From Thiobacillus sp. 65-1059 (lineage in GTDB: Bacteria; Pseudomonadota; Gammaproteobacteria; Burkholderiales; Thiobacillaceae), in assembly GCA_001897675.1 (NCBI GenBank), contig MKUE01000128.1, positions 1 to 42,472 of the forward strand: a stretch of DNA of 42,472 nucleotides, given 5' to 3'. This document shows, piece after piece, positions 11,430 to 20,846 of this stretch. The position numbers and the translations under genes were made by a program. Under the pieces are notes generated by a model, which saw nothing but the letters and a program-made list of their open reading frames with translations, was not told the DNA's origin and did no database searches. Within the stretch, counting starts at the first letter, position 1. Every line of letters starts with the position of its first letter.

Positions 11430-11451
11430 GCTGTCCGGAAGTTGGGACAGC
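11430..11451. promoter_or_regulatory. 22-bp inverted repeat, candidate upstream activator site
   Basis: GCTGTCC and GGACAGC form a perfect 7-bp inverted repeat around an 8-base spacer. It lies about 75-95 bases upstream of the -24/-12 promoter at 11526, a normal position for an enhancer site bound by a sigma-54 activator dimer. The nearest candidate activator is the VpsR-like protein encoded at 19482-20846. Binding is inference. Confidence 0.55.
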
Positions 11452-11525
11452 TTTCATGCGGATGTTCGCCTCCCAGCCCGGCTTTTTTCAGGAAAAACCC
11501 ATTCCATTCAATTGGATAGATGTGC

Positions 11526-11541
11526 TGGTACGCCCCTTGCT
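11526..11541 (+). promoter_or_regulatory. Sigma-54 (RpoN) -24/-12 promoter of the giant glycine-rich protein operon
   Basis: TGGTACGCCCCTTGCT differs from the consensus TGGCACG-N4-TTGCT at one position. GG (11527-11528) and GC (11539-11540) are separated by exactly ten bases, as sigma-54 requires. A start site near 11553 would give a leader of about 60 bases before ATG 11612. Confidence 0.8.
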
Positions 11542-11611
11542 GTTGGGCTGTCGAAGTCGGTGTTCCGTGGCTTCGCCGTTTTGATTTCTCAACTGCCTAG
11601 TGGAGGTTATG

Positions 11612-13780
11612 ATGAACAAAAGTCTCATTTCTACGGCTCTAGCCCTGGCTTTCGGTATGTCGGCCCAGGCCTGGGCCAATCCCACCAATACCGCCGATAC
11701 ATTCGACAACAACGGCGACGCCACGCAGACGGCCACGGCGGAGTCCAACCAGTCCGGCCAGTCCGGTGCCGCGGCCAACGAGTACTCACGCACCAGCCAG
11801 AACTCGAAGAACCGCAGCGCCACCCAGTCCGCCAACACGGGCGCGACGGCCAACGACGGTTCCAGCGCGTACCAGTACAACGACTCCTACAACGACACCT
11901 CTTCCTACAACGACGATTCCTTCAACACCCAGTCCCAGAACAAGCATTCCTTCAATACCGACGTTTCGGCCACAACTGTGCTCGAGGGCAAGGTTTTCGA
12001 CAACCAGGTTCATGACATCGGCAATTACGCCGAAGGCGGCAGCCGCGCAGGCGATGGCGCCCGAGGCGGCAACGGCGGGGATTCCAGCCAGCACACCTTC
12101 AGCATGTCCATCGGCGCCGACGGCGGCGATGCGGGCTCCGGCGGCGACGGCCATGCCTTTGCCGTTGGAGGCGATTCCAAGGCGGGCGACGGCGCCAAAG
12201 GCGGCTCCGGCGGCGACGGCGGCATGGCCTGGGGCGGCATCGGCGGCAAGGGCTATGGCGGCGACGGCGGTTCCGGCGGCAATGGCGGCAGCGCCTCCGG
12301 CGGTTCCGGCGGTTCCGGCGGCGACGGCGGCAAGGGCTATGGCGGCGACGGCGGCTCCGGCGGCGGTTCTGGCTCGGCCATCGGCGGCTCCGGCTTTGGC
12401 GGCAAGGGCTATGGCGGTTCCGGCGGCGACGGCGGCAGCACGGCCGACGCCAGCGGCGGCAGCGGTTATGGCGGCAAAGGCTATGCCGGCTCCGGCGGCG
12501 ATGGCGGCAGCAATGGCGACGCCAGCGGCGGCAGCGGCTACGGTGGCAAAGGCATCGGCGGCGACGGCGGCGCCGGCGCCAGCGGCGGCAAGGGCTACGG
12601 CGGCGACAGCGGCGCCCTGGCCGCGACCGGCTCCGGCGGCAAAGGCTCCGGCGGCGACAGCGCGGCCTTGTCGGCGACCGGCAACGGCGGCAAAGGCTAT
12701 GCCGGCGACAGCAGCAATGGCGCGAGCGGCGGCAACGCTTTTGAGGTGGGCGGCATTTCGGTCGGCAACAGCGGCCTGGTGAGCCAGAATCCCGACACCA
12801 CGAATGGCCAGGCCGGCGCGACCAATACGCCCTCCGAAGGCAGCGACGACTCCGCTGCCCACGCCGGCAACACGGCCAGCCCCTCCAACTCCAGCACAAC
12901 CGGTGCGGCCACGTCGGGCGCCGGAACCGGCGGCACCGCCACGGCGGGCGCGGCAACCGGGACGTCGACCGCCGGCAATGCCGCGGGCGGCGCCAGCGGC
13001 AGCACCAATGACGTCAGCGGCGGCGGCGCCGGCACCGGCGGCGGCAGCGGGACCGCCAGCGGAACCAGCACGGCAGGCGCAGGCACGGGCGGCGCGGGCG
13101 GCTCGGGTGCCGTCGGCGCTGCCGGAACCGGCGCTGCCGGCAGCGGTGCCGCGGGCACCAACACTGCCGGTAACGGCGCTGCCAGCGGCAACGGCACCGG
13201 CGCTGCGGGTACCGGCGCTGCCGGCACCAACACCGCTGGCAACGGTGCCGCGGGCGCGACGGGTACCGGCGCTGCCGGAAATGGCGCGACCGGCAACAGC
13301 CTGGGCGGCGCGGGCGCGGTTGGCGCCGTCGGCAATGGCGGCGCAGGCGGCGCAGGCGCCGTCGGCGCGGCCGGCAGCAGCACCGGCGGCGCCGGCGCAG
13401 CGGGCGCGACCGGCACCGGCGGGACCGGCGAAGGCGGCGTCGCGGGCGCCGGAGGAGTCGGTGCCGCCGGCGGCAACGGCGGTGCCGGCGGAACGGGCGG
13501 GGCGGCCACGGCGAACGGGCCTGGCGGCAATGGCGGCAACGGCGGACTCGGCGGCGCTGCCAGCAGCAGCGCCATCGCGTCGGCCACCACCGGCTATGGC
13601 GGGGTGGGCGGCAACGGTGGCGATTCGCTGGGCGGCAACGCGGGCACCTTCAATGCCTCCAACAACATGTCCGGCAGCGTGACCAATGGCGCCGGCATCA
13701 TCTCCCTGTCGCAGAACACGGGAGCGAATGCCCTGACCCAGATCGGCGTGACGGTACAGGCCAACCTGACGGTTCAGTGA
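11612..13780 (+). CDS. Giant secreted glycine-rich (PGRS-like) protein, copy 1
   Basis: The 722-aa protein starts at ATG 11612 (GGAGG at 11602-11606; ATG 11609 is also possible). It has a clear Sec signal peptide cut after MSAQAWA. Residues about 23-140 are rich in Asn, Gln, Ser, Thr and Asp (SYNDTSSYNDDSFNTQSQN), ending in a block shared with copy 2 (VLEGKVFDNQVHDIGNYAEG). Then come about 240 residues of GGxGG repeats (GGKGYGGDGGSGG), a short polar linker and about 230 residues of Gly-Ala repeats (GTGAAGTNTAGNGAAG). The C-terminal 60 residues lose the repeats and end in SQNTGANALTQIGVTVQANL. There is no Cys in the mature part. The repeats recall mycobacterial PGRS and silk-like polyglycine; the ends recall amyloid subunits. 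I infer a matrix or fibre protein; no enzyme domain is present. Confidence 0.88.
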   Translation: MNKSLISTALALAFGMSAQAWANPTNTADTFDNNGDATQTATAESNQSGQSGAAANEYSRTSQNSKNRSATQSANTGATANDGSSAYQYNDSYNDTSSYNDDSFNTQSQNKHSFNTDVSATTVLEGKVFDNQVHDIGNYAEGGSRAGDGARGGNGGDSSQHTFSMSIGADGGDAGSGGDGHAFAVGGDSKAGDGAKGGSGGDGGMAWGGIGGKGYGGDGGSGGNGGSASGGSGGSGGDGGKGYGGDGGSGGGSGSAIGGSGFGGKGYGGSGGDGGSTADASGGSGYGGKGYAGSGGDGGSNGDASGGSGYGGKGIGGDGGAGASGGKGYGGDSGALAATGSGGKGSGGDSAALSATGNGGKGYAGDSSNGASGGNAFEVGGISVGNSGLVSQNPDTTNGQAGATNTPSEGSDDSAAHAGNTASPSNSSTTGAATSGAGTGGTATAGAATGTSTAGNAAGGASGSTNDVSGGGAGTGGGSGTASGTSTAGAGTGGAGGSGAVGAAGTGAAGSGAAGTNTAGNGAASGNGTGAAGTGAAGTNTAGNGAAGATGTGAAGNGATGNSLGGAGAVGAVGNGGAGGAGAVGAAGSSTGGAGAAGATGTGGTGEGGVAGAGGVGAAGGNGGAGGTGGAATANGPGGNGGNGGLGGAASSSAIASATTGYGGVGGNGGDSLGGNAGTFNASNNMSGSVTNGAGIISLSQNTGANALTQIGVTVQANLTVQ
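12040..13600 (+). repeat. Glycine-rich repeat region of copy 1, part of a tandem gene duplication
   Basis: Degenerate GGC-GGC-N3 repeats encode GGDGGSGG/GGKGYGG units (about 12040-12760) and GGC-GC-rich units encode GAAGTGAAG-type repeats (about 12890-13600). The whole gene (11612-13780) and the next one (13866-16031) are tandem paralogues. They are nearly identical at the signal peptide, at the FDNQVHDIGNYAEGGS block (about 11995-12045 and 14250-14300) and at the C-terminus, while the repeat cores have drifted. Confidence 0.85.
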
Positions 13781-13791
13781 ACCAGGGACTG

Positions 13792-13820
13792 CCCCGGAAC
13801 GGCGATGAGCGGTTCCGGGG
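13792..13820 (+). terminator. Intergenic stem-loop after giant copy 1 (no T-run)
   Basis: CCCCGGAAC (13792-13800) pairs perfectly with GTTCCGGGG (13812-13820) around an 11-base loop, twelve bases after the stop codon. No run of T follows, so it is more likely an mRNA-stabilising or attenuating hairpin than a full terminator. A related hairpin follows copy 2. Confidence 0.6.
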
Positions 13821-13865
13821 GGCCTGAAACAAGCGCAGCGTTGACCCCCTATTCAGGAGAGTGAA

Positions 13866-16031
13866 ATGAACAAGAGTTTGCTATCCACAGCCATCGCCCT
13901 GGCGCTGGGCATGTCGGCCCAGGCCTGGGCCAATCCGACCAACACCACCGGCACATTCGACAACAATGGCAATGCCGATCAGGCGGCCACGGCGACCAAC
14001 AATCAGGCCGACCAGACGGGCGCGGCAGCCAACGAGTTCTCGACCGCCAACCAGAACGTGAAAAACCGCACCGCTGCCCAGGACGGCAACACCGGCGCGG
14101 CGGCCAATGACGAATCGGAGGCGAGCCAGTACAACGGTTCGTACAACGAGACCTCCTCCAACAACCACGACTCGTTCAACAACCAGTCGCAGAACTACGG
14201 CTCCTTCAATACCGATGTGTCGGCCAAAACCATGCTCGAGGGCAAGGTCTTCGACAACCAGGTTCATGACATCGGCAATTACGCCGAAGGCGGCAGCAAA
14301 GCCGGCGACGGCGCCACAGGCGGAAACGGCGGCGATGCCTGGCAGGATACGGCGAGCAAGGCCTGGGGCGCCAACGGCGGCTCGGCCGGCGACGGCGGCA
14401 ATGGCTCGGCCAAGGCGATCGGCGGCGACACCTACGCCGGTGACGGCGCCCGGGGCGGCCATGGCGGTGACGGCGGCAATGCCGTCGGCGGGATCGGCGG
14501 CATGGGCGCCGGTGGCTCCGGCGGTTCCGGCGGCGACGGCGGCAGCGCCTATGGCGGCAATGGCGGCAATGGCGGTAATGGCGGCACCGGCGCCGGTGGC
14601 GACGGCGGCAGCGGCGGCTATTCCGGCATGGCCAAAGGCGGCTCCGGCTTCGGCGGCAGCGGTTCCGGCGGCGACGGCGGCAGCGGCGGCAGCACCGGAG
14701 ACGCCTATGGCGGTTCCGGCAGCGGCGGCAAAGGCTATGCCGCCGCCGGCGGCGATGGCGGCAGCAACGGCAATGCCAGCGGCGGCAGCGGCAGCGGCGG
14801 CATCGGTGTCGGCGGCGACGGCGGCTCCGGTGCCCACGGCGGCACCGGCGTCGGCGGCGACAGCTTTGCCAAGGCCTTCAGCGGTCCCGGCGGCAGAGGC
14901 TACGGCGGCGACAGCGCCGCAGCCTCGATCACCGGCGACGGCGGCAAGGGCGCGGGCGGCGACGGCAGCAACGTTTCGGATGGCGGCAACGCCAGCGGAA
15001 TAGGCGGCATTTCCGGCGCCAGCAGCGGACTGGTCAGGCAGCAGCCTTACACCTCGAACGGCGATGCCAACGCAAACAACAATCCGATCGACAGCAACGA
15101 CTCGTCCGCCAGCGCCGGCAATACGGCCAATCCCGGCAACAGTTCCAGCACGGGCAGCGCCGGTTCCGCTGCGGCCAGCGGCGGCGCGGCCACGGGCGGC
15201 GCTGCCGACGGCATGGCCGCAGGTGGCAGCGGCAGCGGTGGCGCGAGCGGCAGCACCGCCGGCGCCAGCGCCGGCGGCGCAGGCAGCGGTGGCGCCAGCG
15301 GCGCGGCCAACGACAGCAGCACGGCAGCCGCAGGCAATGGCGGCGGCGGCGGCTCGGGTGCCGCAGGCGCGGCCGGCACCGGCGCGGCCGGCAGCGGCGC
15401 GGCAGGCAGCAACACCGCGGGCAACGGCGCATCCAGCGGCAACGGTACCGGCGCCGCCGGCACCGGCGCGGCCGGCACCAATACCGCGGGCGCCGGGGCG
15501 GCCGGCGCGACCGGCAGCGGCGCCACCGGTACCGGCGCGGCCGGCACCAGCGCCGGCGGCAATGGCGCGGTTGGCGCAGTCGGCAATGGCGGCGCCGGCG
15601 GTGCCGGCGCGGTCGGCGCGACGGGCACCAGCACCGGCGGCAATGGCGCGGTCGGCGCCACGGGAACCGGCGGCACCGGCCAGGGCGGACTGGCGGGCAA
15701 CGGCGCAAGCGGCGGTGCCGGCGGTGAAGGCGGTGCCGGCGGCGCCGGCGGGACGGCCACGGCAAACGGCAACGGCGGCGCCGGCGGGCTGGGCGGCAAT
15801 GGCGGCAGCGCAAGCAGCGAAGCCATGGCTTCCGCCACCACCGGCTATGGCGGCGCGGGCGGCAACGGGGGGCACTCGTACGGCGGAAATGCCGGAGACT
15901 TCAACGTCTCCAACAATATGTCCGGCAGCCTGACCAATGGCGCCGGCATCATCTCCGCGTCGCAAAACACCGGCATCAATGCGCTGACCCAGATCGGCGT
16001 GACGGTGCAGGCCAACCTGACGGTTCAGTGA
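13866..16031 (+). CDS. Giant secreted glycine-rich (PGRS-like) protein, copy 2
   Basis: This 721-aa tandem paralogue of the preceding gene has the same layout. The signal peptide (MNKSLLSTAIALALGMSAQA-WA) is followed by an Asn/Gln/Ser-rich region (YNETSSNNHDSFNNQSQN), the shared FDNQVHDIGNYAEGGS block, GGxGG repeats, a polar linker, Gly-Ala repeats, and the C-terminus SQNTGINALTQIGVTVQANL followed by TVQ. AGGAGAG lies just upstream of ATG 13866. The 85-base gap to copy 1 holds a hairpin, so both probably share the sigma-54 promoter at 11526. Nearly equal length with diverged repeats suggests selection for overall dimension. A structural matrix or fibre role is inferred from composition, the signal peptide and the peptidase/barrel neighbours. 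Confidence 0.88.
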   Translation: MNKSLLSTAIALALGMSAQAWANPTNTTGTFDNNGNADQAATATNNQADQTGAAANEFSTANQNVKNRTAAQDGNTGAAANDESEASQYNGSYNETSSNNHDSFNNQSQNYGSFNTDVSAKTMLEGKVFDNQVHDIGNYAEGGSKAGDGATGGNGGDAWQDTASKAWGANGGSAGDGGNGSAKAIGGDTYAGDGARGGHGGDGGNAVGGIGGMGAGGSGGSGGDGGSAYGGNGGNGGNGGTGAGGDGGSGGYSGMAKGGSGFGGSGSGGDGGSGGSTGDAYGGSGSGGKGYAAAGGDGGSNGNASGGSGSGGIGVGGDGGSGAHGGTGVGGDSFAKAFSGPGGRGYGGDSAAASITGDGGKGAGGDGSNVSDGGNASGIGGISGASSGLVRQQPYTSNGDANANNNPIDSNDSSASAGNTANPGNSSSTGSAGSAAASGGAATGGAADGMAAGGSGSGGASGSTAGASAGGAGSGGASGAANDSSTAAAGNGGGGGSGAAGAAGTGAAGSGAAGSNTAGNGASSGNGTGAAGTGAAGTNTAGAGAAGATGSGATGTGAAGTSAGGNGAVGAVGNGGAGGAGAVGATGTSTGGNGAVGATGTGGTGQGGLAGNGASGGAGGEGGAGGAGGTATANGNGGAGGLGGNGGSASSEAMASATTGYGGAGGNGGHSYGGNAGDFNVSNNMSGSLTNGAGIISASQNTGINALTQIGVTVQANLTVQ
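14290..15840 (+). repeat. Glycine-rich repeat region of copy 2
   Basis: Degenerate GGC-rich repeats encode GGNGGNGGNGGTGAGG-type units (about 14290-15010), then Gly-Ala units such as GTGAAGSGAAGSNTAGNG (about 15120-15790). The strand bias of GGC/GCC codons leaves the opposite strand open for nearly 700 codons (13881-15965); that frame is an artefact. Confidence 0.85.
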
Positions 16032-16038
16032 ACCGCCA

Positions 16039-16068
16039 CCCCGGAACCGCCGTGCGGCGGTTCCGGGG
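16039..16068 (+). terminator. 13-bp perfect stem-loop after giant copy 2 (no T-run)
   Basis: CCCCGGAACCGCC (16039-16051) pairs with GGCGGTTCCGGGG (16056-16068) around the tetraloop GTGC. It begins 8 bases after the copy 2 stop and has no T-run. It resembles the hairpin at 13792-13820 (shared CCCCGGAAC). It may stabilise the giant-protein mRNA or reduce read-through into the smaller downstream genes. Confidence 0.65.
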
Positions 16069-16088
16069 ATTTCCGGAAGGAAGACGCC

Positions 16089-16436
16089 ATGAATGACTTT
16101 CTCGCATTACTGAAACCCGTTTCGTTTCTGGCCTGCGCGCTGGCCGTCCAGCTGGCCTGGGCCGCGCCCGATGAAACCATTCCCGGCAACGACGCGTTCG
16201 ACGCGGCGATTGCCGACGACATGCTCGACGGCCAGCGCGGCATGGCGCTGATCACCAACACCAATGACCTGGATGGCGCCGTGTACGCAAACAGTGCGAA
16301 CGACCTGGTTACCGGCTACAACCTGGTGAGCGACGGCTCGCTGATCAACAACTCCGGCTTCAATACCGTCATCCAGAATTCGGGCAACAACGTGCTGATC
16401 CAGAACGCAGTGATTCTGAATATCCAGATGCAATAA
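16089..16436 (+). CDS. Small secreted protein with LDxxRG motif and Asn/Gln-rich C-terminus
   Basis: The 115-aa protein has a Sec signal peptide (to about residue 25, AVQLAWA). The mature part begins acidic and carries DDMLDGQRGM at residues 43-52. The remainder is Asn/Ser-rich with beta-prone strands and ends NTVIQNSGNNVLIQNAVILN followed by IQMQ. That tail resembles the C-termini of the giant proteins and of the 17140 product. GGAAGGAAG lies ahead of the ATG, and the C39 peptidase gene starts 9 bases after its stop. I infer a minor fibre, nucleator or chaperone-type component of the secreted assembly. I do not recognise the family by name. Confidence 0.8.
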   Translation: MNDFLALLKPVSFLACALAVQLAWAAPDETIPGNDAFDAAIADDMLDGQRGMALITNTNDLDGAVYANSANDLVTGYNLVSDGSLINNSGFNTVIQNSGNNVLIQNAVILNIQMQ

Positions 16437-16445
16437 GGAGTTCCC

Positions 16446-17129
16446 ATGCGCAATGCCGCGCTGTTCCTGATGGCCGTGCTGGTTGCGATGCCCGCCGCGC
16501 GGGCGGGCATGGTCGAGATCCCGGGCGCCGGCTCCGGCTCCTTCAGCGTCAAAGCCATGAGCATGAAGGAGCGGCAGTTCCGCTACACCGAACGCCAGCA
16601 GTACGATTTCAGTTGCGGCTCCGCCGCGCTTTCCACCCTGCTCACCCATCACTACGGCGACCCGGTCAAGGAAGAGGCGGTGTACACCGCCATGTGGGAA
16701 AAGGGCGACCAGGCCAAAATCCGCAAGGAAGGCTTTTCCATGCTCGACATGAAGCGTTTCCTCGAATCGCGCGGCTATGCGGCCGACGGTTACAACGCCA
16801 GCCTGGAAAAGCTGGGCAAGGCGGGCATTCCTGCCATCGTGTTGATTCGCGATGGCGCCTACAACCATTTCGTCGTCGTCAAGGGGGTTCGCGACGGCAA
16901 AATCGCTTTCGGCGATCCCGCGCAGGGTGCGCGGGTCATGGATCAGGCGCCATTCGAGCGCATGATGATCAACCGCATCCTGTTCGTCATCAACGGGCGC
17001 AATGCCGGAGTGGTGTTCAACGACCCGAAGGACTGGAAAGTCCGCGAAAAAGCCCCCGTCGGCATGGCTTCAGGTCCCAACGATCTGGCCAACGTCACGC
17101 TGATGCGCCGGCCGGCAGGTGATTTTTGA
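16446..17129 (+). CDS. Periplasmic C39-family cysteine peptidase (FapD-like)
   Basis: The 227-aa protein has a Sec signal peptide (about residues 1-22, VAMPAARA) and one peptidase C39 domain. The triad is visible: Cys57 in YDFSCGSAALSTLL, with Gln a few residues before it, His141 in AYNHFVVVKG and Asp157 in FGDPAQGARV. C39 peptidases of bacteriocin exporters cut after double-glycine leaders. Here no ABC transporter or membrane domain is fused, so the enzyme acts alone in the periplasm, as FapD does in the Fap amyloid system. AAGGAG precedes ATG 16446. Likely substrates are the flanking secreted proteins, both with an LDxxRG motif; this is inference. Confidence 0.93.
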   Translation: MRNAALFLMAVLVAMPAARAGMVEIPGAGSGSFSVKAMSMKERQFRYTERQQYDFSCGSAALSTLLTHHYGDPVKEEAVYTAMWEKGDQAKIRKEGFSMLDMKRFLESRGYAADGYNASLEKLGKAGIPAIVLIRDGAYNHFVVVKGVRDGKIAFGDPAQGARVMDQAPFERMMINRILFVINGRNAGVVFNDPKDWKVREKAPVGMASGPNDLANVTLMRRPAGDF

Positions 17130-17139
17130 GGAGGTGGCG

Positions 17140-17898
17140 ATGTCCAGCCTGCGTCTGGTTTTTTTACTGCTTGCCCTCTTGTCGGGCGGGCTCGCTCACG
17201 CATCGTCCGCCTTCGATGACGCGCCGCGCGCCAGCGACGAGGAACTCGACCGCATGCGCGGCGGATTTGTCGTCAACTGGAACGGCCAGGAGTTCCTGCT
17301 GCCATTTTCCATCGACGGCATCGAACGCCTGACCCAGATCAATGGCCAGACCTTCGTCAACGGCGAACTGGTGGCGCCCAGGGTCAACCCGCAGGCGCTC
17401 GTTCCCTTCTCGCAGAATGGCCAGATCGGCGTGAATGTACCAACCTTGCCCGCACTCGACGGCACCGTGCCGGCGGGTTTGCCGGCCGCATCCGCGGATG
17501 CGAATGCCGGCTCGGGTGCAAGCGTGGCGGCAGGTCCGGCGCCGCTCGAACAAGCCGCAAGCGGATCGCCTGCGAATCCTCCGGCTTCGCTGCCCGCGAC
17601 GCAGACCGCGCAATCCTCCGGCAACCTCGATACGGCAGCGCCGGCATCCGCCAGCCCCGGCACGGCGGCTGCGCAGGTGACCACGCAAGGCGCGTTGATC
17701 GTCATCCAGAATGGTGCGGCCAACGCGTTCGTGGTGCCGTCGGGCGCTGCGCTCGATTCGCTGGCCACGATCATACAAAACTCGGTGAACGACCAGGTCA
17801 TCCGCAATATCACGACCCTCAACATCACCATCGATGCCCAGATGCTGGCGGCGCAGGCGCGGCTCAACGCCATCCTCGACCAGCATGGCCTGCGTTAA
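17140..17898 (+). CDS. Secreted protein with double-glycine (LDRMRGG) motif, candidate C39 substrate
   Basis: The 252-aa protein starts at ATG 17140 (GAGGAGG at 17128-17134; an upstream GTG at 17119 is not favoured). The Sec signal peptide ends at about Ala21. A short acidic stretch then leads to SDEELDRMRGGF at residues 32-43, which looks like a bacteriocin-type double-glycine leader processed by C39 peptidases. Next come NWNGQEFLLPFSIDGIERLT and INGQTFVNGELV, an Ala/Pro/Ser-rich linker (about 105-185), and a C-terminal part with two IQN motifs (VIQNGAANAF and IIQNSVNDQVIRNITTLNIT). Eleven bases separate it from the peptidase gene. It may be a FapE-like accessory or plug protein, but I do not recognise the family with certainty. 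Confidence 0.82.
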   Translation: MSSLRLVFLLLALLSGGLAHASSAFDDAPRASDEELDRMRGGFVVNWNGQEFLLPFSIDGIERLTQINGQTFVNGELVAPRVNPQALVPFSQNGQIGVNVPTLPALDGTVPAGLPAASADANAGSGASVAAGPAPLEQAASGSPANPPASLPATQTAQSSGNLDTAAPASASPGTAAAQVTTQGALIVIQNGAANAFVVPSGAALDSLATIIQNSVNDQVIRNITTLNITIDAQMLAAQARLNAILDQHGLR

Positions 17899-17916
17899 GG
17901 CCGCTACGCGCAATCG

Positions 17917-17960
17917 GCGCAGCGAAAAGCCGGGCATCCCAGCCCGGCTTTTCGCTGTGC
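17917..17960. terminator. Bidirectional terminator between convergent genes
   Basis: AGCGAAAAGCCGGG (17921-17934) pairs with CCCGGCTTTTCGCT (17943-17956), and the stem can be extended at its base to 17917/17960. Runs of A and T within the stem suit both directions. It separates the plus-strand secretion operon from the minus-strand barrel gene. Confidence 0.85.
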
Positions 17961-17972
17961 CGCGATCAAGGC

Positions 17973-19256
17973 TCAGAACCTGATCGGGAGGCGCAAGGTG
18001 ACGGTGGTGTCCGGTGTATCGTCGGTCAGCCCGGCGCCGATCGACAGATTAAAGTTGGTGCGCTTGTTCAGACGATAGGAAAACCCCGCCTGCAGGGTGG
18101 CCAGCTGAACCCACATCGATCCATCCGCCACTTTGCCATCGAGCCTGGTCTTGTCGATCCAGGTATGCTCGTAGCTCAGGCTGAACGAACTGCGCTCGTT
18201 GAGCCCCAGCCCCATGCCGACGTTGAGGCCGAGCGAGTCGCCGGGATCGACTTCGCCTATGGACCGGGTTGTGACCGTGCCCGAAGAGTTGGTGAAGGGG
18301 ATCGAGGCATTGACGTCGCGCTTGATGTTCCACGTGTAATTGATGCCGCCGAAAAACACCACCGGATCGGCGGGCAGCACCATGCTCAGGCTGGGCTGCA
18401 GGCTGTAGAAGCCGGAGCCGGTCGGCAGCTCCTTCGGCAGGTTGAAGTCGGTATCGTAGGCGACCTCGTACTGGTCCTTGCCGGTGCGGGTCTTGAGGCG
18501 CAGGCCCGCAACATAGAAGGGGGCGTCGCCCGTGGGCACATTGAGCTGGTAGCGCGCGGCCAGTTCGATGTCGCCGATGCCGCTGCCGTCCGAATTGAAT
18601 GATTCATCTATTGCACTGCCGGAAATTCGCCGCGACAGCGAATCATCGCGGCGATAGATATACGGCACCCGGGCTTCGATCTCCAGCCGGTTGGTCAGCC
18701 CGTAGCGTCCGCCCAGGGTCGCAATCAAGTTGTTGCGATTGACGCTGCGCACGTCGATGGCCCCGATCAGCACCGCGTTCAGCACGCTGAAACCGACCAC
18801 CGTCACGCGGTCCGACGAACTGAAGGAATACTGCAGCGAGGGATCGAAAACGAAGGTGCCCTTCGGCGTCAGGATGCTGGGCTGGGAAAACACGGTCGCC
18901 ACATCCAGGGTGGTGCTGTCCACCCGCCCGGCCTCGTCGCCGCGGCCGCGGAACGTCGACTCGTCAGCCTGGGCAAGGCGCTGCGGGTTGATCTCCGCGG
19001 GCATGCCCAACTGCCCCTGCATCGCCTGGATGCGGCGCTGGGCCTCTTCCAGCTTCTTCATCTCCTGCGCCAGCCGTTGCTGCTGCTCGGCCAGGCTCTT
19101 CGCCTGTTCGGCCAGCTGCTGGCGCAGGGCCGGGTAATCGGCGTCGGCCGGCGCATCCCGGCCCGTCTGGCGCAAGGTTTCAGCGTAGGCCACGTGCGTG
19201 CTCAACATCATCGCCAGGCTGGCGTGTAACCAGGTTCCCTTCTTCGGCATTCTCAT
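17973..19256 (-). CDS. Outer-membrane beta-barrel with N-terminal coiled coil (FapF-like exporter)
   Basis: The 427-aa protein starts at the ATG complementary to 19254-19256, preceded by GGGAGGGG. A signal peptide ends at about residue 25 (THVAYA). Residues about 37-80 are a Leu/Gln/Glu coiled coil (LAEQAKSLAEQQQRLAQEMK). After a linker, about 300 residues of alternating strands form a transporter-type barrel (GTFVFDPSLQYSFSSSDR, RLEIEARVPYIYRRDD, LPTGSGFYSLQPSLSMVLPA), ending in TVTLRLPIRF with the terminal Phe typical of outer-membrane proteins. FapF, the amyloid exporter of the Fap system, has this same coiled coil plus barrel layout. Convergent with the C39 and giant-protein operon, it is the likely outer-membrane exit for those proteins. 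Confidence 0.85.
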   Translation of the reverse strand: MRMPKKGTWLHASLAMMLSTHVAYAETLRQTGRDAPADADYPALRQQLAEQAKSLAEQQQRLAQEMKKLEEAQRRIQAMQGQLGMPAEINPQRLAQADESTFRGRGDEAGRVDSTTLDVATVFSQPSILTPKGTFVFDPSLQYSFSSSDRVTVVGFSVLNAVLIGAIDVRSVNRNNLIATLGGRYGLTNRLEIEARVPYIYRRDDSLSRRISGSAIDESFNSDGSGIGDIELAARYQLNVPTGDAPFYVAGLRLKTRTGKDQYEVAYDTDFNLPKELPTGSGFYSLQPSLSMVLPADPVVFFGGINYTWNIKRDVNASIPFTNSSGTVTTRSIGEVDPGDSLGLNVGMGLGLNERSSFSLSYEHTWIDKTRLDGKVADGSMWVQLATLQAGFSYRLNKRTNFNLSIGAGLTDDTPDTTVTLRLPIRF

Positions 19257-19335
19257 GATCCCCTCCCTGTCGTGACTGGATGCGATGCTTCGAGCCTGGC
19301 AAGCCTGCGATGGCTCGGATTCAACGATGCGTGCC

Positions 19336-19353
19336 GGCAATCTGAAAACCTCA
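19336..19353 (-). promoter_or_regulatory. Weak sigma-54-like element upstream of the barrel gene
   Basis: Read on the minus strand, TGAGGTTTTCAGATTGCC has GG and GC exactly ten bases apart and a TTGC box, but the -24 half matches the consensus poorly. It is about 80 bases upstream of the ATG at 19256. Suggestive only. Confidence 0.3.
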
Positions 19354-19481
19354 CCCCGATGGCGGCTCAAGCGATGGTTTTTTCGCGGATATTGTCCCCC
19401 GGAATCCGGAAAGACCGGGCGCGCAGCGGCAGGGCCGGGCCGCGTCAAGACGTTCTTTCATTGCCATCGGCGTTGCGGCGA

Positions 19482-20846
19482 TCATGCCGGCTCCCGGGCG
19501 GCTTTTTCCTTGTGCGGGCCGCACAGTGCGTGGCGCTCCAGCAGGCGATACAAGGTGGCGCGCGAGACGCCCAGTTCCCGGGCCGCTTCGGAAACGTTGT
19601 GCTGGCAGCGGCGCAATGCCGAGCGGATCGCATCAAGTTCGGCTTTGGCACGCGCCCCGTCGAGCGTCGGGTGTCCGGCGTACGATGCGCGCCGTTCCAT
19701 CCCCAGGTCGTCCGGAGTGAGATAGGGGCGCTCGGCCATGACCACGCCCTGGCGGATGCGGTTGCTCAATTCCCGCACATTGCCGGGCCAGGAATACTGG
19801 TTCATCGCACGCAATGCCTGCTGGTTGAAGCCCTTGACCTTGCCGCTGGTTTCGCGGGAAAAGCGCTCCAGCAAAGCCTGCGCCAACAGTTCCACATCGC
19901 CCTGCCGGTCGCGCAGCGGCGGCGCCGTCAGGTTGATGACGTTCAGGCGGTAGTAAAGGTCTTCCCTGAAATGGCCTTTGGCAACGGCCTCCTGAAGATT
20001 GATATGGGATGCGGCGATGATCCGGATGTCCAGCTGTATCGGCTGGCTGGAGCCCAGGCGTTCGATCACCTTGTCTTGCAGGACGCGCAGCAGGGTGGCC
20101 TGGAGGTTGAGCGGCAGGTCGGCGATTTCGTCCAGAAAGAGGGTGCCGCCCTGGGCCGCTTCCAGGCGCCCGATTTTGCGTTGGTGCGCCCCGGTGAACG
20201 CGCCTTTCTCATGGCCGAACAATTCGCTTTGGATGAGATGGGGCGGCAAGGCCCCGCAATTGACCGCCACGAAGGCTTTCGTGCCGCGGGCGGACATGTC
20301 GTGGATGGCGTGGGCGGCCAGTTCCTTGCCGGTGCCGCTCTCCCCGCCGATCAGCACGGGCGCGTCAGCCTTGCTGGCTTTGCGCAATGCCTGGCAGAAA
20401 GCCAGCATCGCCGGGCTGCTGCCCACGATGCCATGCTGTTCCAGGGTGTCGGGACGCGGCGGCGGCTGCTTGAGCAGCCGGCCCTTGCCCCAGGCATGTC
20501 CCAGGGAGACGGACAGCCGGTCCTGGTCGACCGGCAGGGTATGGAAATCGTACACCCCCGCCAGAAAATTGCGGTGCTGCGGGGTGGGCCGCCAAAACGC
20601 ATGGTCCATCAGCGCAATCCATTGCAGGGATTGCTGCCGTCCCACCAGGTCATACAGCTTGCTGCTGCCGGTGCGCTGCAACTGCAGCAGCCCAGCATGG
20701 AAGTCCTGCCGTTCGAAGAGCGCGGCCAATTCATCCGTATTGGCCGCCCGGTGCAGTTTCCAGCCTCTCTCCCGCAGGCAGCCGAGGAGCTTGCCGTGCA
20801 ATGCGTCGTCCACCAGCGCCACGACGTCCCGGTCAACCGAAACCAT
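19482..20846 (-). CDS. VpsR-like sigma-54-dependent transcriptional activator
   Basis: The 454-aa protein has a receiver-like N-terminal domain (about 1-120), an AAA+ domain and a Fis-type helix-turn-helix. The AAA+ part has Walker A GESGTGKE (168-175), the sigma-54 contact loop GAFTGA (215-220), Walker B GTLFLDEIADLP and FREDLYYRLNV. The helix-turn-helix is NVSEAARELGVSRATLYRLL. Where a receiver would carry its phosphorylated Asp (HAGLLQLQ, about 50-57) there is no Asp. It is therefore probably not a normal response regulator, like the VpsR group, some of which bind cyclic di-GMP. GGAGGAG precedes the ATG. It lies just upstream of the barrel gene on the same strand, with 225 bases between. 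It is the best candidate to act on the sigma-54 promoter at 11526. Confidence 0.93.
   Translation of the reverse strand: MVSVDRDVVALVDDALHGKLLGCLRERGWKLHRAANTDELAALFERQDFHAGLLQLQRTGSSKLYDLVGRQQSLQWIALMDHAFWRPTPQHRNFLAGVYDFHTLPVDQDRLSVSLGHAWGKGRLLKQPPPRPDTLEQHGIVGSSPAMLAFCQALRKASKADAPVLIGGESGTGKELAAHAIHDMSARGTKAFVAVNCGALPPHLIQSELFGHEKGAFTGAHQRKIGRLEAAQGGTLFLDEIADLPLNLQATLLRVLQDKVIERLGSSQPIQLDIRIIAASHINLQEAVAKGHFREDLYYRLNVINLTAPPLRDRQGDVELLAQALLERFSRETSGKVKGFNQQALRAMNQYSWPGNVRELSNRIRQGVVMAERPYLTPDDLGMERRASYAGHPTLDGARAKAELDAIRSALRRCQHNVSEAARELGVSRATLYRLLERHALCGPHKEKAAREPA

Follow-up and report, generated by a model that had tools for sequence, protein, structure and literature searches.

A Fap-like export locus in Thiobacillus encoding large glycine-rich subunits

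Gene content of the locus

Here we describe a predicted export locus of Thiobacillus sp. 65-1059 that is related to the Fap functional amyloid system. The window, meaning the whole 42,472-nucleotide stretch of DNA that was analyzed, is contig MKUE01000128.1 of a 2.9-Mb genome. The plus strand carries, in order, genes for two large glycine (Gly)-rich proteins (G1 and G2), a small secreted protein (S3), a C39 peptidase, and a FapE-like protein (P5); on the minus strand, a sigma-54 activator gene is followed by the gene for an outer-membrane barrel (Table 1). Open reading frames, Pfam matches, and coordinates bear out all seven genes where an earlier reading of the letters alone (the sequence-only reading) had placed them. 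Sec-type signal peptides are visible by eye on all five plus-strand products and on the barrel. Over their whole length, G1 and G2 are each 32% Gly.

Table 1 Features of the locus, with positions counted from the first nucleotide of the window
Feature	Position	Strand	Basis
Sigma-54 (-24/-12) promoter-like site TGGTACGCCCCTTGCT	11526..11541	+	11/12 consensus positions; 86 nucleotides before G1 start
G1, large secreted Gly-rich subunit, 722 residues	11612..13780	+	Open reading frame; homologs
G1 anchor A1, first half of terminal unit	11945..12061	+	A1 model, 60.7 bits
G1 Gly-rich insertion, 525 residues, 41% Gly, no Cys	12062..13636	+	
G1 anchor A2, C-terminal half of terminal unit	13637..13777	+	A2 model, 67.7 bits
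G2, paralog of G1, 721 residues, 73% identical to G1	13866..16031	+	Open reading frame; sequence comparison
G2 anchor A1	14199..14315	+	59.1 bits
G2 Gly-rich insertion, 524 residues	14316..15887	+	
G2 anchor A2	15888..16028	+	66.8 bits
S3, 115-residue secreted protein with signal peptide, C39-type leader, and one terminal unit without insertion	16089..16436	+	
S3 leader motif LDGQRGM, degenerate double-glycine motif	16224..16244	+	L46 and G51 invariant
Periplasmic C39 peptidase, FapD-like	16446..17129	+	Pfam PF03412, E 1.5e-18
P5, FapE-like secreted protein, 252 residues	17140..17898	+	Homologs; profile comparison
P5 leader motif LDRMRGG, residues 36-42	17245..17265	+	[LM]x3RGG in 81/81 homologs
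FapF-like outer-membrane barrel with N-terminal coiled coil (by eye)	17973..19256	-	PDB 5o67; NCBIfam FapF
Sigma-54 activator with VpsR-type N-terminal domain	19482..20846	-	PF00158, E 5.6e-70; VpsR, E 5.3e-12

The peptidase and barrel resemble FapD and FapF

Profile searches were made with Pfam and NCBIfam models, and eight window proteins were scanned against Pfam. The C39 peptidase matches the NCBIfam FapD model NF058616 at 125.6 bits (E 1.7e-36), below the equivalog cut-off of 330 bits, which is passed in none of the 369 genomes of a class sample, those with canonical-looking loci included. An alignment of 15 sequences shows no variation at its catalytic residues C57, H141, and D157. Residues 117-427 of the barrel match the FapF crystal structure (PDB 5o67/5o65, E 1.1e-35), and the protein reaches 172 bits (E 1.8e-50) against NCBIfam FapF, short of the 700-bit equivalog cut-off. 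Two PTG motifs can be seen by eye in the barrel; passages of Rouse et al. describe PTG motifs in FapF (PMC5557850). Judged by these matches, the barrel is a FapF homolog and the C39 peptidase is FapD-like, in agreement with the pairing that the sequence-only reading had made.

Co-occurrence and distribution

A scan of genome contigs found at least 576 encoded C39 relatives, of which the best 80 are the loci named here; since these are the best matches, the sample leans towards close kin. Beside the C39 gene there is a P5 homolog in 80/80 loci, an S3 homolog in 79/80, and a barrel homolog in 78/80. This co-occurrence across 80 loci indicates that the arrangement is more than chance. Of the 78 barrel genes, 35 are downstream on the same strand, 32 downstream on the opposite strand, and 11 elsewhere, so that 43 do not lie downstream on the same strand. 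An activator homolog is close to 38 of the 80 loci (E ≤ 1e-80). With the window counted, 77 of 81 loci showed a large subunit (66 by pattern, 5 partial by profile, and 6 by inspecting Gly-rich frames). None was found in L035, L056, L058, or L066; two of these, L035 and L066, have the C39 gene close to the end of a contig. In one annotated record, the genes in the positions of S3, P5, and the large subunit are labeled hypothetical.

Among the matches listed, the nearest named locus is L015 from Thiobacillus sp. 65-1402, with a C39 peptidase that is 98% identical. Within Thiobacillus the peptidase is patchy: 9 of 36 genomes, its own among them, have a match, which in G020 is weak (E 6e-21). The search covered 60 genomes in all and gave a C39 match at E ≤ 1e-3 in 13, in some cases to a different C39 protein. 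In the class sample of 369 genomes, a FapD-type C39 is found at E ≤ 1e-20 in 43, a FapD match of at least 196 bits (canonical-looking Fap) in 15, and S3 in at least 13, a lower bound with at most 11 candidates scored per genome; the S3-bearing family is about as frequent there as canonical-looking Fap. This Fap-sister export system is real and widespread, and the Gly-rich giants are its main subunits.

Both types can be found on one contig. Contig C11 of genome G071 has a canonical-looking FapD (E 1.2e-77) and a second C39 (E 9.8e-40) accompanied by S3 (E 6.6e-27), at sites near 249 kb and 338 kb, about 89 kb apart. The Gly-rich version is also present in a strain that has been studied extensively, on the megaplasmid of Cupriavidus metallidurans CH34 (L136, 63307-75897), with large subunit, S3, C39, P5, and barrel; the plasmid gene table for this megaplasmid shows no genes across that stretch.

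The large subunits carry one terminal unit split by a Gly-rich domain

Two conserved segments, A1 and A2, flank the Gly-rich stretch of G1 and G2. A2 (GI..SQN-x-G....QQ-x-V-x-VQAN) is found in 76/76 large subunits, once in each, and A1 (core L-x-G-x-V...GN) reaches at least 10 bits in 66 of the 76, from 56 loci. None of 1520 letter-shuffled control proteins reaches 10 bits for either model; because these large subunits also served to build the models, the counts measure conservation rather than discovery. The gap between A1 and A2 spans 139-698 residues and is 29-47% Gly. Together, 66 inserts (21,702 residues) contain 91 Pro and no Cys, with a Gly-Gly spacing of three enriched 1.32-fold.

Ten large subunits have no A1 at 10 bits or more. 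Four of these are incomplete or masked (L018, L022, L031, L075), one is weak (L023), and five are un-inserted (L025, L033, L040, L047, L050). In the un-inserted subunits, an L-x-G-x-V core lies 12-20 residues from A2, where the same pattern measure gives 550 for G1. Further un-inserted versions are found in L125, L126, L128, L131-L134, and the alphaproteobacterial L137. The large subunits of L123 and L124 repeat the terminal unit four times in tandem rather than having it once.

We compared un-inserted and inserted subunits by profile-profile alignment. Earlier comparisons, in which the windows on both sides had been chosen by motif, were partly circular, and the main ones held when redone with rows picked by position or by distance from the C-terminus. 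The un-inserted ends were taken as the last 110 residues of 12 subunits, cut by distance from the C-terminus only. Against the last 60 residues of the inserted subunits they give a probability of 98.4 and a score of 77.6 (decoys 22.6), and against A1 a probability of 74.3 and a score of 28.4 (best of 30 decoys 12.3). By these alignments, the Gly-rich domain lies within a single conserved terminal unit, with A1 and A2 on either side. The sequence-only reading had the amyloid subunits replaced by, or fused to, polyglycine proteins; the Gly-rich domain stands, and simple replacement or fusion gives way to an insertion within the unit.

A model of 28 canonical FapBC repeats built here misses the family, detecting none of the 76 large subunits at E ≤ 1e-3 and all 14 of the FapC proteins that were its own sources. 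As the sequence-only reading had said, the fiber proteins do not look like FapB or FapC, in that they show no detectable FapB/C repeats. A search with the N-terminal part of G1 returned one protein, with a word filter that is weak on such sequence.

S3 resembles a single unit

The full-length S3 profile matches the un-inserted large-subunit ends with a probability of 97.4 and a score of 69.9 (decoys 22.6), and with a probability of 97.5 when motif-chosen windows are used. S3 therefore looks like a one-unit relative of the large subunit, and its role may be comparable to that of FapB. The C-terminal end of P5 also matches S3 (88.6, motif-chosen windows). The 28-repeat FapBC model found no S3 or P5 at E ≤ 1e-3, the best S3 being at 0.0014.

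P5 and S3 carry double-glycine leaders

The motif [LM]x3RGG is present in all 81 P5 homologs and in 58 of 80 S3. For background, 160 C39 and barrel proteins contain 12 sites in 56,436 residues, and the 76 large subunits contain none. In a motif-blind alignment of 35 S3, L46 (Leu) and G51 (the first Gly) are invariant. The leader columns show V/L/I/A at -12 and R at -3, with mostly M/L/I/V/A at -4 and F/Y at +1 in P5; positions -7 and -2 of these counts are fixed by the search pattern. The S3 columns come from the best pattern candidate (L/M at -7; G/A then G at -2; RG preferred) and so are not independent. The consensus leader for C39 peptidases has a hydrophobic residue at -12, Leu at -7, a hydrophobic residue at -4, and Gly-Gly at -2/-1. 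Read against that consensus, the P5/S3 leader is a classical double-glycine leader.

In canonical FapE, a pattern ending RG[KR][YF] was present in 9/9 genes read, from L103 and 8 of 9 other loci (L108, L110, L113, L115, L116, L118, L119, and L121; none for L117). These nine were picked as the gene downstream of the peptidase, which had itself been located without the motif; where the peptidase was followed by two overlapping frames (L110 and L115), the longer one was used. Another set of 13 FapE, used for column counts, was picked by the motif pattern, and those counts are circular. Full-length P5 (65 rows, at most 350 residues) aligns with the nine position-chosen FapE at a probability of 88.8 and a score of 45.6 (best of 30 decoys 17.8). 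The alignment covers 52 columns around the leader motif in the N-terminal region, with the remainder unaligned, and it places the Lx3RGG of P5 on the [MIL]RG[KR] of canonical FapE.

This P5-FapE alignment points to a processing site in FapE, and the Lx3RGG leader is a candidate substrate site for FapD. In passages of Rouse et al., FapE alone showed complete N-terminal processing, with no peptides in the first ~70 residues, a FapD C38A mutation abolished FapC secretion, and the Fap proteins are stated to lack canonical C39 sequences (PMC5557850). Excerpts of a 2018 review describe the FapD substrate as undetermined (PMC6173800), and part of a 2025 review has FapE and FapF only “thought” to be the substrates (PMC12822426).

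Similar motifs occur elsewhere. The putative FapA of L103 has LQKVTGRG, which resembles the leader motif. An S3 counterpart in Croceicoccus (L137, 5516-5911; LQATAGREGI) and FilA of Acinetobacter (L151, 4693-5532; LSAATGQDGI) share a similar short motif downstream of the signal peptide that may be a further C39 tag.

Phylogeny of the C39 peptidase

In a tree of 109 C39 sequences, a branch with 100/100 support parts 14 canonical FapD and L120 from the 94 sequences of this system. When the tree is rooted on FapD, the window falls inside a clade of 78 (98/88), and L025, L033, L040, and other un-inserted loci branch outside. A Gly-rich subunit is seen in 74 of the 78 rows of this clade and in none of the other four. 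Across this large clade, Gly-rich subunits are the norm and no oddity of Thiobacillus. The tree favors a single insertion of the Gly-rich domain, which would be the simplest history, with one doubtful locus. L130 lies within the inserted clade on a long branch and has a large subunit of 34% Gly with an end unlike A2, which blurs that history, as does L122 with its subunit of 20% Gly outside the clade. For L129, no subunit was seen within the short stretch covered.

On its repeats, gene order, and C39 phylogeny, the locus is a sister of Fap rather than a member. The kinship proposed in the sequence-only reading holds at that level, and ordinary Fap membership was rejected on the same three counts.

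Regulation

A sigma-54 site with at least 10 of 12 consensus positions is found upstream of the first large subunit in 25 of 62 loci, against 1.4% of letter-shuffled upstream regions. All 25 sites sit 75-96 nucleotides before the estimated start, and the site in the window scores 11. The VpsR-type domain on the activator suggests biofilm-type control.

Proposed assembly and alternative explanations

The locus probably builds an extracellular fiber or matrix by a Fap-like route. The sigma-54 activator would drive G1-G2-S3-C39-P5, presumably co-transcribed, from the promoter at 11526, and Sec would carry all products into the periplasm, consistent with the signal peptides seen. There, the C39 peptidase is predicted to cut P5 and S3 at L-x-x-x-R-G-G, and leader cleavage would license export through the FapF-like barrel, as the homology of the latter suggests. 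Outside the cell, G1 and G2 may assemble via their single terminal unit, A1 plus A2. S3 might act as a one-unit partner that nucleates or caps, because it carries the same terminal unit as G1 and G2. The 525-residue Gly-rich stretch would be thrown out between A1 and A2 as a loop on the fiber surface, giving the fiber a Gly-rich coat. Amyloid formation, cleavage, the coat, and the fold of the insert are inferred.

A more specific version is offered tentatively, with confidence a little short of even. It holds that the locus represents an unnamed and widespread sister of Fap, whose fibers would consist of a single split cross-β unit with a Gly-rich domain of ~140-700 residues inserted once, one loop per fiber layer. 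The FapD recognition code would be a double-glycine leader on the FapE-like and one-unit partners, degenerate as RG[KR] in canonical FapE.

Several results weigh against these proposals. For the split unit, the A1 profile has no match in un-inserted loci by hmmsearch at 1e-3, and its alignment to them joins the L-x-G-x-V core over 18 columns, by profile-profile comparison only. A1 matches S3 weakly (probability 22.3, score 20.9, decoys 13.9), as does the unit the canonical FapC repeats (22.7, score 22.3, decoys 12.7, motif-chosen windows), and the C-terminal end of P5 does not match the un-inserted unit (0.15, motif-chosen windows). AlphaFold models of G1 (mean predicted local distance difference test score, pLDDT, of 33) and S3 (pLDDT 57) were uninformative and so lend no structural support to A1 packing on A2. 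For the leader, S3 of the window itself has LDGQRGM rather than RGG, and the canonical FapE motif ends in RG[KR] rather than GG. L122 lies outside the inserted clade yet has a subunit of 20% Gly. For regulation, a sigma-54 site of at least 10/12 precedes the barrel gene in 1 of 78 loci, with no enrichment over shuffles (1.7%).

The position of A2 at the extreme C-terminus and the similar unit at the end of S3 would also fit a model in which the Gly-rich proteins are a non-amyloid matrix or adhesin, A2 is no more than an export signal read by the barrel, and S3 and P5 are signals or accessory peptides. The insert, with 41% Gly, low Pro, and no Cys, is compatible with this, as are structure predictions that gave no support for a cross-β fold. 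We consider this model unlikely, as the four unit copies per protein in L123 and L124 fit a structural repeat better than a terminal signal, and A1 is conserved far upstream of A2. It is quite improbable that this is an ordinary Fap operon whose Gly-rich proteins are FapB/FapC that have diverged and gained longer linkers, despite its FapD, FapE, and FapF counterparts, the weak similarity of the unit to FapC repeats, and the highly variable FapC linkers noted in sections of Dueholm et al. 2013 (PMC3792158). The repeat model that recovers its own 14 canonical FapC sources recovers 0/76 large subunits, the C39 clades split at 100/100, and the gene order differs; there is also a single A2 unit in each of 76 large subunits, against three repeats almost invariably in Fap according to part of the 2025 review (PMC12822426). 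Finally, a bacteriocin or peptide-signal system, in which S3 or P5 would be a secreted peptide matured by C39, with Gly-rich genes that are no more than neighbors, would account for double-glycine leaders of textbook spacing and is very unlikely, given that the eight proteins scanned include no ABC transporter, that the C39 peptidase is free and has a signal peptide, and that FapF and the large subunit co-occur with it.

Returning to the Fap-like route, the locus offers its most useful test in the double-glycine leaders: aligned with the [MIL]RG[KR] of FapE, the P5 motif gives a single-site prediction for FapD that could be tested in a Fap strain. To our knowledge, it would be unusual for a functional amyloid to accept an insertion of 500 residues in the middle of its fiber unit. 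Such a unit could be useful as a display scaffold.

Comparison with known systems

The long GGX runs of G1 and G2 recall the PE_PGRS proteins of mycobacteria, which have such runs. The likeness, which led the sequence-only reading to call them PGRS-like, is one of composition and does not extend to family: the phylum and export route differ, and membership was rejected, as neither G1 nor G2 matches any Pfam family at E ≤ 1, the N-terminal PE domain included. Bacteriocin exporters of the double-glycine/C39 type have the same leader spacing as P5 and S3. Unlike in those exporters, the C39 here is a free periplasmic protein that is not part of an ABC transporter, and its predicted substrates also have Sec signal peptides.

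The Fil locus of Acinetobacter (FilA-FilF, “putative pilus”) shares the C39 (FilB, 116 bits) and barrel (FilC, 77 bits) families. In L151, the one Fil locus covered, no S3, P5, or Gly-rich subunit was seen on the one strand read, in stretches of more than 110 residues and with FilF cut off; its sole Lx3RG-type match lies inside the barrel. Membership in the Fil system was rejected, since the locus shares with it the C39 and barrel families only and not the FilA-F gene set.

With Fap (fapABCDEF), found in Pseudomonas and other bacteria, the locus has in common secreted subunit genes, a periplasmic C39 peptidase, a FapE-like protein, and a barrel of the FapF kind, which in Fap combines a coiled coil with 12 strands. 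A canonical operon from the same taxonomic order, L103 (1645-9338), is likewise preceded by a sigma-54 activator gene, and between its fapE and fapF lies a gene with a GGDEF motif. Unlike Fap, the present locus has the extra S3, a separate C39 clade, and one split unit with a Gly-rich insert, versus about three FapC repeats. Its order is large subunit-S3-C39-P5 with the barrel on either strand, not fapABCDEF or fapBCDEF. No FapA-like gene was recognized, though no FapA model was run and S3 was not compared with FapA.

Among the titles and abstract openings listed by searches of open-licence papers, with neither subscription papers nor preprints covered, none describes the family. Larger families have been suggested before: in the portion of Dueholm et al. 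2013 consulted, the models matched many more proteins than Fap operons account for, curated Fap making up 70 of 1594 FapD-model matches and 68 of 217 FapF-model matches (PMC3792158). Passages of the 2018 review report co-localized fapD and fapF homologs in five additional phyla (PMC6173800). The 2025 review, as excerpted, counts 1602 Fap clusters (PMC12822426). The locus appears to fall in this FapD/FapF world, outside the 1602 Fap clusters.

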